64,000 nt of DNA from Branchiostoma lanceolatum. Taxonomy: Eukaryota > Chordata > Leptocardii > Amphioxiformes > Branchiostomatidae. Position numbers and translations under genes: made by a program. Shown here piece by piece: positions 11,301 through 17,300 of the stretch (its first letter is position 1; the number at the start of each line of letters is the position of its first letter). The stretch is taken from positions 17,857,955 through 17,921,954 of the forward strand of contig NC_089728.1 of NCBI RefSeq assembly GCF_035083965.1, given 5' to 3'. The notes under the pieces were generated by a model. That model did no database searches, had not been told where the DNA came from, and saw only the letters and a program-made list of their open reading frames with translations.

Positions 11301-14300
11301 GCACCGTGGCCCCCGGATAGGGGCCAGCCGGGGAACCTATGCCCAATTTTTTCGAAAATCCCAATATATCACTCCCGAAAGATGTCATTTTTTATGTCAC
11401 CGCAAATGGTGAATGTAGGTGGGGCAACCTGAAATTTTGATGTGCAACCTAGCTTTTCCCCCAGGTTGCCCACCGGGCAACCTGGCTCAAAAAAGTATTT
11501 CGCACCCTGTAGAGAGAACACCAGCGACCCAAAAAAAACACCCCTCCCAATAAAATGGTATGGCGACCCTGTGACGTCACAATTCAAGATGGTGGCCACC
11601 ACACATGCCAACGGATCCAACAAAGGTTTTTCAAACCTGTAACTACAGTCAAACCTGCCCAAGAAGACCACTCAGAGGACTGATCCAAGCAGACTGGATC
11701 TGTGGATCCAAGCAGACTTTTAGCTACGATCTACAGACAGGACATCCAATAATTGGAGGGAGGGGGGAAGCTGTTATAACCCAATGGGCTCTAAGGATGA
11801 ACAATTACCCTGTGGTTTTGCAATTATTTTATATGCTGGCCCAGTGTCTGGTATGAAGAAAAAACAAAAGTGGCAGTGTGTGTGTGGGGGAACACATGTA
11901 CATGTACAATTATTGTTAATGTAATTACCAGCAGGGAAACAGGGTGTCGTCTGGGTGTCCCCTGCAAAGGAGGGCATCTTATTTCTTTGTTTTCTTAGTG
12001 TAGGGCATCCAGAAGACGCCTTGGTGCCCTGCTAGCTAATAGTCCAGTGGTTTACCCACCCTCCTGTATGTGTCTCCTGTGTGTGCCTGCTCCCTTATAT
12101 AGTGGTTTACCCACCCTCCTGTATGTGTCTCCTGTGTGTGTCTGCTCCCTTATAAAGTGGTGTACCCACCCTCCTGTATGTGTCTCCTGTGTGTGTCTGC
12201 TCCCTTATATAGTGGCGTACCCACCCTCCTGTATGTGTCTCCTATGTGTGTCTGCTCCCTTATATAGTGGTTTACCCATCCTCCTGTATGTGTCTCCTGT
12301 GTGTGTCTGCTCCCTTATATAGTGGTGTACCCACCCTCCTGTATGTGTCTCCTGTGTGTGTCTGCTCCCTTACATAGTGGTTTACCCACCCTCCTGTATG
12401 TGTCTCCTGTGTGTGTCTGCTCCCTTATATAGTGGTTTAACCACCCTCCTGAATGTGTCTCCTGTGTGTGTCTGCTCCCTTATATAGTGGTGTACCCACC
12501 CTCCTGTATGTGTCTCCTGTGTTTGTCTGCTCCCTTATATAGTGGTTTACCCACCCTCCTGTATGTGTCTCCTGTGTGTGCCTGCTCCCTTATATAGTGG
12601 TTTACCCACCCTCCTGTATGTGTCTCCTGTGTGTGTCTGCTCCCTTATATAGTGGTTTACCCACCCTCCTGTATGTGTCTCCTGTGTGTGTCTGCTCCCT
12701 TATATAGTGGTTTACCCACCCTCCTGTATGTGTCTCCTGTGTGTGTCTGCTCCCTTATATAGTGGTTTACCCACCCTCCTGCATGTGTCTCCTGTGTGTG
12801 TCTGCTCCCTTATATAGTGGTTTACCCACCCTCCTGTATGTGTCTCCTGTGTGTGTCTGCTCCCTTATATAGTGGTTTACCCACCCTCCTGCATGTGTCT
12901 CCTGTGTGTGTCTGCTCCCTCATATAGTGGTTTACCCATCCTCCTGTATGTGTCTCCTGTGTGTGTCTGCTCCCTTATATAGTGGTTTACCCATCCTCCT
13001 GTATGTGTCTCCTGTGTGTGTCTGCTCCCTTATATAGTGGTTTACCCAGTGGACCCTCCTGTATGTGTCTCCTGTGTGTGTCTGCTCCCTTATATAGTGG
13101 TGTACCCACCCTCCTGTATGTGTCTCCTGTGTTTGTCTGCTCCCTTATATAGTGGTTTACCCACCCTCCTGTATGTGTCTCCTGTGTGTGCCTGCTCCCT
13201 TATATAGTGGTTTACCCACCCTCCTGTATGTGTCTCCTGTGTGTGTCTGCTCCCTTATATAGTGGTTTACCCACCCTCCTGTATGTGTCTCCTGTGTGTG
13301 TCTGCTCCCTTATATAGTGGTTTACCCACCCTCCTGTATGTGTCTCCTGTGTGTGTCTGCTCCCTTATATAGTGGTTTACCCACCCTCCTGCATGTGTCT
13401 CCTGTGTGTGTCTGCTCCCTTATATAGTGGTTTACCCACCCTCCTGTATGTGTCTCCTGTGTGTGTCTGCTCCCTTATATAGTGGTTTACCCACCCTCCT
13501 GCATGTGTCTCCTGTGTGTGTCTGCTCCCTCATATAGTGGTTTACCCATCCTCCTGTATGTGTCTCCTGTGTGTGTCTGCTCCCTTATATAGTGGTTTAC
13601 CCACCCTCCTGTATGTGTCTCCTGTGTGTGTCTGCTCCCTTATATAGTGGTGTACCCACCCTCCTGTATGTGTCTCCTGTGTGTGTCTGCTCCCTTATAT
13701 AGTGGTTTACCCACCCTCCTGTATGTCTCCTGTGTGTGTCTGCTCCACTATATAGTGGTTTACCCACCCTCCTGTATGTGTCTGCTGTGTGTGTCTGCTC
13801 CCTTATATAGTAGTTTACCCACCCTCCTGTATGTGTCTCCTGTGTGTGTCTGCTCTCTTATATAGTGGTTTACCCACCCTCCTGTATGTGTCTCCTGTGT
13901 GTGTCTGCTCCCTTATATAGTGGTTTACCCACCCTCCTGTATGTGTCTCCTGTGTGTGTCTGCTCCCTTATATAGTGGATTACCCACCCTCCTGTATGTG
14001 TCTCCTGTGTGTGTCTGCTCCCTTATATAGTGGTTTACCCACCCTCCTGTATGTGTCTCCTGTGTGTGTCTGCTCCCTTATATAGTGGTTTACCCACCCT
14101 CCTGTATGTGTCTCCTGTGTGTGTCTGCTCCCTTATATAGTGGTTTACTCACCCTCCTGTATGTGTCTCCTGTGTGTGTCTGCTCCCTTATATAGTGGTT
14201 TACCCACCCTCCTGTATGTGTCTCCTGTGTGTGTCTGCTCCCTTATATAGTGGTGAACCCACCCTCCTGTATGTGTCTCCTGTGTGTGTCTGCTCCCTTA

Positions 14301-17300
14301 TATAGTGGTTTACCCACCCTCCTGTATGTGTCTCCTGTGTGTGTCTGCTCCTTTCTCCTGCTGCACCTCCAGCTGTTGTAGGAGGACCTGGTTCTCCTCT
14401 AACACTGACCTTGCCTGCTCCTGGAGACGATACCTACAGGAAAGGTACATGTTCAACATAATGTTTTAGAGTATTCGTATGCATACTTAGATAGAGTGTT
14501 TTTATTTTTATTCATTAAGTAGATAAGCACTAGTCTAACTGCCATTTATGCAAAAGTTACCATACATTGTAGCTGTTAAAATTCTTCTCTCTCTCAATAT
14601 GGTGACATGGCCTCGTCTAGCCTGCGTGCCATCCTATTTAGTTTACTGGGCCTCCCATACCACCATGTTTTCAGATTGGTAATTTTGGCACTTTGGAAGT
14701 GATTGAAAGCGACCGCAATTTAACGTTTAGAAAAAAATAGTTTCTACTGATTTTCTCTAAACGTTAAATCGTGGTCACTTTCAATCACTTCCAAAGTGCC
14801 AAAATTACCAATCTGAAAACATCTTGGAAAGCTGACACCTTCCACCATCTCACTGTTTTGTCAGATGTAGTCGTTACTTTAACGCAAGTTAGAAAGGGAT
14901 TTGTCGGGAAGTGGCTGATACGAATCTGCGTTTCAATGCCATTCACATGGTTTGATTGGTCGAGGTGCATACATGTACTTACCTGTTGGTTTAAGGACAG
15001 TATAGGAGCCCCATTAAACTAATTAGGATGGCACCCAGGCTAGACCTCATCTCTATACACCTTCAGATATCCCACAGTAATTTTGAGCGAAAGATGCATT
15101 TATAATGCCCTACTATGACCAAAACCCATGTCCATGACAGAAATGTTTATGCAAGGTAACAGTTACTCAAGCAAATGGATGGAATTTGGAAACGGTCAGA
15201 CGTTTTAGGTAGCATCTACTGTAACCTTTCGTCAGTGACACTGAGCAAGACATGTAGATTAACAGGTTTTTAACCACACACCGTGAATTTCATAGTTTGT
15301 GGTTAAAAACCTGCTAATCTACAGATCTCATTGCGTCCCTGATGAAAAGTAGTGGTTGCTACTTGAAACGTCTGACCGTTTTCAAATTCTATCCAGTTGC
15401 TTGTCAACGAGTAACTGTTACCTTTCGTATCTTATTAGCTGGATGTCTAACCTTCATCAACGCGACAGAAATGTTTATTCATGAGTTTTACCCACCACTC
15501 ATCCATGTTAACAGGTACGGAGGTGTCAGAGTCGTGCAGTTGTTTGTGTAGCGCCTGGTTCTCAGCTAGGATCTCCTCAAGACGAGTCTTAAAGTCGTTC
15601 AGCTCCTCCTAAGGAAAGCAATAGCAATGAATATATGTCAGGTGATATTTCTCAAACCAGACAATGCATTCATACTCCTGTTGGAAAAAAACGACTTAAA
15701 ACTTGGAAATTCCAAAGAAGGTGGCAAAATTTTCCCCTCAGTTCTGCTTACTGTATGTAACATAATATAATTTTTCTGTTTGTAAATCTAATTCTTATCT
15801 GTCAGTAAATTTCAAAACCCTCACTGGTTGATCACTGAGTTAGAATAACAAGTTTAAAACCATGTTAATGCACCTCATATCTGTGTATTGCTGCATCTCT
15901 CTCTTGTAACCTGTCATCATATGCCAGCATCAGGGGGGACAGGTACTTTGTGTCAACCTGGGTGTGGCAAGAACTTTTTCATTTCAATTTAGCTACAATG
16001 AATATTGGACTTATCATTACAAACATGTGTAATATGAGGGAAGTAATGTACGAAGTAAGTAATGCATACAAAACATCAAGTACTGTAGCTTATTATCTTC
16101 GCCGAGTACTTGTTATAATAAGTTTCAGAAGATAACAGCATGTACTGACCAGCCAGGGTGGGATGGGTCCTCTAGTTGGCAAGCCTCTGGCATCCTTTCC
16201 TTCTTCCTAAAAAACAACAACAAAATATCATAATTATGGTCTGCGTACAACATTATATCACAAAAAGAGGTGCACTACCTTAGATTTATACATGTATGCA
16301 TCAAACTTGAATTACAATAAACTTTCCACTACACTGACCAAAAGATATCTGATATGTTAAGCTATCCTGAAACAAAAGCTGGCACTCTTACAGACTGTGG
16401 TTGTATTTAACACTTTTATTGACAGTGACTTGTCAGGCTTATCCTGGAGACAGCCCTATGTTCCAACACCCCTAAGTTCTGAAGTTATAGGCTGGGGTTA
16501 GAGTTAGGGGGTGTTGGAACATAAACTTTACACTATACAGACTAAAAGATGCTTTAACTCTGTAAGGCTACTCTGAAACAAGGCTGTACTTGTAACAACA
16601 CTTGTATTCATAGTGACTGTAATACTTACCCTTTGTGGGGAGGGGGGTCTGTACTTGGCCTGATATCTACTGAGCTCCACGTTGAGTCTGTGAACAGTTC
16701 TCTTCAGCGCATCATTCTCATGGACAACCTCCTCTGCCTGCTGTTTTATAAGGGCCAGCTGTCCTGCCTCTGGGGCTAAAACAAATACAGTGAATCATAA
16801 ATCTTTAACTGTCTTACCGTTGCGTTGATGAAGGTTAGACATCCAGGTAAACAACACTAATATGCAATTTAAACTCTACTTCTGGATAATTTACGAGCTT
16901 ATTTCCAGACGTTTTGAGTGACATCCATTACCCTTCTTCAGCGTCACTTCTGGTGACGCTACGGCGTCTTCTAGTGATTTATCCAGTAATCAATCCTGGG
17001 GGGGGGGGGGCAGTAGTAGAGTTTAGATATTGTACATGTATATTAGTGTCTTACTGCTGCTTTACTCCAAAACTGATTCAAAATTTAGTACCAAAAAGCA
17101 GCTCAAGTAGGGAGAAGGTTATGCAGGGAAAAAGGTGGTAAATTCTCTTCTGTTACGGGCACCAGTCAAGATAATATGGAAGGTACAACCTTGCTTCCAA
17201 GCACTCACTAAAACTTAAATTTGCTCTTTTCTGTAAGGCGTACGCAGCCTATTTTGATTTCCCGTAATTCAAAGGGAAAGCCGTCTTTTCCACATAATTT

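Follow-up and report, generated by a model that had tools for sequence, protein, structure and literature searches.

How one 5' splice site is chosen among many nearly equal ones is an old question, studied mostly with constructs that carry few sites. It is raised anew by a stretch of 64,000 nucleotides of Branchiostoma lanceolatum (NC_089728.1, positions 17,857,955 to 17,921,954 of the forward strand; hereafter the window, positions being counted from its first letter). On the minus strand of the window a CEP89-like gene carries, astride the end of one coding exon and the start of the following intron, a 55-bp minisatellite that repeats the exon end together with its donor over 42 units. With a probability of about 0.82 we read this array as a “mirage”, i.e. 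a minisatellite-like tandem duplication of an exon-intron boundary, lying inside the CEP89 intron, near-neutral, with the copy-1 donor normally used and some leakage from donors 2 to 4.

Tandem Repeats Finder (TRF) places the array at 12046-14351, with a period of 55, 41.9 copies, a 96% match and a score of 4301, by far the highest of the 23 TRF rows in the window (runner-up 664). These are the coordinates and the unit length that a previous, sequence-only reading of this DNA had given. Cut on the minus strand, the array yields 42 units: 39 measure 55 bp, two others 53 and 60 bp, and the final, partial one 48 bp. Each is made of a copy of the exon end and of a copy of the 5' splice site or its remnant. 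As that reading had it, the unit comprises 34 nt of exon end and 21 nt of intron start; the final copy retains only the first 14 intronic nt, GTGGGTAAACCACT. This 14-nt sequence is present at both ends of the array, and ATATAAG (with its variants) is confined to between-copy positions. At the 55 consensus columns 17 of the 42 units, unit 1 included, are identical to the consensus; unit 24, identical to it at these columns, nevertheless carries an extra 5-nt insertion. Unit 1 is part of the coding exon 14433-14318 and the remaining units lengthen the intron. The repeat unit crosses the exon-intron boundary, which we placed by phase and by alignment with a human CEP89 sequence not drawn from a database, that is from sequence alone.

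This coding exon (14318-14433, minus strand, 116 nt), found by the exon scan and kept in the gene model, has the exonic part of unit 1 as its last 34 nt. The exon opens with the base that closes a split codon and ends with the first base of another, to which the following coding exon (10010-10190, minus strand, same origin) brings two bases. Nine GTs were tested as donors, from 14409 to 14258, starting beyond the exon's initial 20 nt. Only that of unit 1 (AGG/GTGGGTAA, 14310-14320, minus strand; AGG/GTGGGT with the first intron base at 14317) gives a full open reading frame into exon 10190-10010, and the gene model picked it unprompted. The eight others break the frame, so that among the donors tested the first alone keeps it, as had been claimed. 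Reading on past donor 1 gives GAG GGT GGG TAA, the stop already pointed out; donors 2 to 42, each at the corresponding position of its unit, all reach this one common stop, after HRRHIQEGG. Skipping of exon 14433-14318 breaks the frame too.

Donors and acceptors were scored with human splice-site position tables, a human codon table and a U1 5' end sequence, none of them drawn from a reference source, hence the scores rank sites only roughly. The unit 1 donor has a position weight matrix (PWM) score of 3.4, mid-range among the 18 donors of the model (1.4 to 8.6), and its U1 pairing (-10.9) is the sixth strongest of the 18 (-4.5 to -12.3). The donor GTAAAC at 14313, 4 nt downstream, was rejected for its lower score and broken frame, and read-through into the array for its immediate stop. 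Pseudo-exons within the array were also rejected: none of its 296 AG sites scores above 0 as an acceptor (-2.7 at best, down to -20.3, vs 1.8 to 12.4 for the 19 acceptors of the model). The array contains neither AATAAA nor ATTAAA as an intronic polyadenylation signal; three AATAAA lie elsewhere in the intron, at 11017, 10984 and 10339.

The sequence-only reading spoke of about 42 donors. The 42 units are there, but the splice signal GTGGGT or GTGAGT is retained in 36 of them. Thirty-five donors read AGGGTGGGT, with the 9-mer and the PWM score of copy 1; their U1 pairing is -10.9 (28 donors, the first included), -10.7 (six) or -9.3 (one). Unit 4 alone reads AGGGTGAGT. Its donor (AGG/GTGAGTAA, 14145-14155, minus strand) has a GTGAGT nearer the consensus than that of copy 1, a PWM score of 5.9 vs 3.4 and a U1 duplex of -11.7 vs -10.9. 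In four donors (units 15, 25, 26 and 38) GT has become AT, giving AGGATGGGT; two more are damaged, that of unit 24, split by its insertion, and that of unit 35, weakened to AGGGTGGTT. Within the donor 9-mer 6 of 378 cells are variant, against 32 of 1924 elsewhere in the unit (p = 1; both counts of variants transferred by hand from the unit variation table, the unit 24 insertion not counted). Since the 9-mer varies like the remaining unit, the decoy donors appear to be neither kept nor purged, and this comparison over the 42 units reveals no selection on them.

We propose that a segment comprising the final 34 nt of a CEP89 coding exon and the start of the following intron was duplicated in tandem, and that unequal exchange then expanded this duplication to 42 copies, which would be carried as additional intron length. 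The spliceosome would normally choose the copy-1 donor and mostly bypass the later ones; copy 1 is probably favoured because it stands at 116 nt, a normal exon length, from the acceptor of its exon, and because no acceptor-like site of the array scores in the range of the gene's own acceptors. Any use of a later donor would lead to one identical truncated frame, an expected target of nonsense-mediated decay (NMD). Because later donors would be mostly bypassed, and their use would give only this frame, the array is most likely close to neutral. Some leakage to donors 2 to 4 is predicted, with exons of 171, 226 and 281 nt, copy 4 foremost. What is said here of donor use in the CEP89-like gene is throughout what we infer from its sequence.

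Several points weigh against this reading. The donor of copy 4 is stronger than that of copy 1 and merely 165 nt further on, and its 281-nt exon is of a size still possible. In experiments with duplicated donors the one nearer the 3' end of the intron often wins when all are occupied by U1, which would predict more misuse of later donors than we assume. Inside the exon itself, the frame-breaking GT at 14409 (AAG/GTCAGT) has a PWM score of 4.3, above the 3.4 of copy 1. Finally, 8 of the 34 columns of the exonic half are variable vs 12 of the 21 of the intronic half (p = 0.02), and the variant cells are 15/1428 and 23/874 respectively (p = 0.006, leaving aside 8 cells of the incomplete final unit). 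Such lower exonic variation is not expected under simple neutrality, though the units are not independent and, because they share descent, both p-values are too small.

The strength of copy 4 would be central if the array were a splicing rheostat, in which a share of transcripts, either regulated or dependent on copy number, would use later donors, chiefly this one, so that the state of the array would tune the dose of CEP89. The product would be NMD-targeted, or a C-terminally truncated CEP89 that comprises 455 model residues and ends in HIQEGG. The 36 intact donors, of which 35 equal copy 1 in 9-mer and PWM score and copy 4 surpasses it, and the single stop common to every later donor are consistent with such tuning. 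So is the recurrence along the array of CA-rich and G-rich stretches (76 ACACACA and 35 GGGTGGG), both of which are bound by splicing factors. However, the later donors show no more conservation than the other positions of the unit, and the known mirages are reported not to produce aberrant mRNAs (PMC3087553, PMC3902484). We consider a rheostat unlikely. Its explicit form, a copy-number dependence in which the share of donors 2 to 4 shifts with the state of the 42-copy array to yield decayed or truncated CEP89, seems to us slightly more doubtful still.

The growth of the array has left a trace. A 541-bp stretch (13063-13603, minus strand) recurs without mismatch 610 bp further along: in the unit tables, units 15-23 recur as units 26-34 with their variants shared in order. 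A lag of 11 units gives 8 shared variants, while in 1000 shuffles of the unit order the best lag never gave more than 7. Such an internal re-duplication would be the expected trace of unequal exchange or conversion, but a false assembly join would look alike. A shorter real array might thus have been inflated in the assembly, for example by a false join at this 610-bp shift. Besides the perfect recurrence over 541 bp, this would fit with arrays of this kind being prone to misassembly; according to the legend of a supplementary file, the globin mirage BflGb6 appears to be aberrantly assembled in the draft (PMC3087553). But several units have private variants, the flanks are an intact exon and a non-repeated intron, and within the array, over shifts from 300 to 1199 bp, we found no further exact match longer than 250 bp. 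We therefore hold an inflated copy number to be improbable; our estimates for the rival explanations are not mutually exclusive, and inflation is compatible with the mirage proposed here. As for an exon ending elsewhere, with the array an ordinary intronic minisatellite that only resembles a donor, the higher-scoring GT at 14409 could suggest it, but it is very improbable, given the broken frame at the eight GTs other than that of copy 1 and the alignment of the unit's exonic half with the human CEP89 sequence used here.

The host gene was modelled on the minus strand by a simple exon scan and phase-aware dynamic programming. The resulting CEP89-like model (5315-23750) has 19 exons, all chained in phase, with a terminal stop and a 5' end that was not found; coding scores are weak for three short exons, 9173-9110 (3.0), 7704-7663 (-1.0) and 7000-6954 (-0.4). 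The array-bearing intron (10191-14317, minus strand, 4127 bp) is the longest of the 18 model introns, the rest measuring 182-2222 bp. It also harbours, at 10711-10879, two clusters of repeats of about 20 bp (e.g. CATGCAAATGAGGTACT), some 500 bp before the next exon. The exon ending at 15496, just before that of the array on this strand, is followed by an intron starting with gtgggtaa, the same as at 14318.

The exon of the array had been called exon 14 of CEP89. This number is that reading's own, the exon being the 10th of a model incomplete at its 5' end; the name CEP89 is backed by alignment to a human sequence, no database being involved. A C-terminal part of human CEP89, written out without a database record, aligns gaplessly with 318 residues of the predicted protein, 116 of them identical (36%), at 192 bits. 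With the residues of the window's protein shuffled 500 times, the score never exceeded 26.2 bits; this control is lenient, as the heptad periodicity of coiled coils is lost in the shuffles too. The join of exons 14433-14318 and 10190-10010 falls inside this gapless alignment, the predicted residues that span it pairing with HVEEVSKLTKQLM. Because the human sequence was typed after the window's protein had been seen, the alignment is a strong lead towards a CEP89-like host gene and not a database test. A Pfam search of the predicted protein returned four families, every one below its cut-off, a PDB search gave no match up to E = 0.1, and literature searches for CEP89 peptides and for CEP89 with amphioxus yielded no paper. 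Among the neighbours in the window, a CLPTM1 match lies on the minus strand (given by five of six predicted exons) and a match to the double-stranded DNA-binding domain family on the plus strand. PDCD5 is presumably a member of this family, and we take it to lie close to CEP89 on human chromosome 19. A Ras-family exon is present at 569-795.

Each of the model's 38 exon borders, taken as a 100-nt segment, was compared with the whole window for further copies (E up to 0.01). The donor of the array has 42 matches beyond itself and the end of the last exon has one. The remaining 23 matches concern seven borders, and 22 of them are confined to the intronic half; the one that spans a border links the acceptor of the exon at 7000 to 11052-11016 (38 bp, 79%, E = 0.005). 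A stretch that covers the end of the final predicted exon, its stop codon and downstream sequence (5366-5240, minus strand) has a diverged tandem copy at 5226-5107 (100/129 identical, 11 gaps), and 5366-5107 may represent an older case of exon-border duplication, the second in the CEP89-like gene. TRF reports a 21-bp repeat in five copies at 5012-5115. Downstream of a possible last CLPTM1-like exon near 45480, a 144-bp unit is repeated 2.7 times at 44917-45309 (81% match); read on the minus strand, it is open in places, with similar peptides (TKNHDDPFI), and it could be another exon-border repeat. A 31-bp repeat in 16 copies (47532-48019) lies between predicted CLPTM1-like exons.

The array amounts to a naturally occurring ladder in which 36 intact donors, mostly in 55-nt steps, face one acceptor, with a stronger fourth step and four GT-to-AT losses. 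cDNA from this single gene would thus reveal the weight of distance relative to that of strength. As in constructs with duplicated 5' splice sites, near-identical donors would compete for one acceptor; unlike them, the array is natural, has 42 copies and belongs to an endogenous gene.

The sequence-only reading knew of no described case of this kind, a claim that the lancelet literature overturns. Mirages are known from the lancelet genes BflGb6, BflGb9 and, from earlier work, Adh3 (PMC3087553), and troponin C mirages are cited in PMC3902484. Further loci with similar structures are reported, AG/GT signals being present on many repeats but not all (PMC3087553). These mirages are unstable in length, one haplotype of BflGb6 having 6 units and another 3 (PMC3087553), and according to the authors regular splicing is apparently undisturbed (PMC3087553, PMC3902484). 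The CEP89-like array shares with them the duplication of an exon boundary, as in BflGb9 a 3' one, the presence of splice signals in the copies and the signs of repeat turnover. It differs by its 42 copies of a 55-bp unit, all of donor type, the units measuring 10-72 bp in Adh3 and 150-160 bp in the globin genes (PMC3087553). In lancelet PGBD5, tandem repeats of 60 and 108 bp likewise overlap exon ends and abut 5' splice sites, but in few imperfect copies (2 or 7 and 3 or 6, differing between assemblies; PMC3902484), whereas 42 copies match at 96% here. Our literature searches, judged by their listings, brought up no longer mirage; 42 is the largest number only among the cases whose copy numbers were compared here, Adh3 not being one of them. 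The intron-gain model of Rogers (cited in PMC3087553) also involves a duplicated exon segment with splice signals and a potential intron, but in the CEP89-like gene the intron pre-exists, the array does no more than extend it, and there is no repeated acceptor half. Since boundary-spanning repeats have been described in the Adh3, globin, troponin C and PGBD5 genes of lancelets, the kind is not new; the CEP89-like array is a further case pointing to mirages as a general feature of lancelets, and as an unusually long one it indicates that a mirage can grow to great length with the reading frame of its gene still open.
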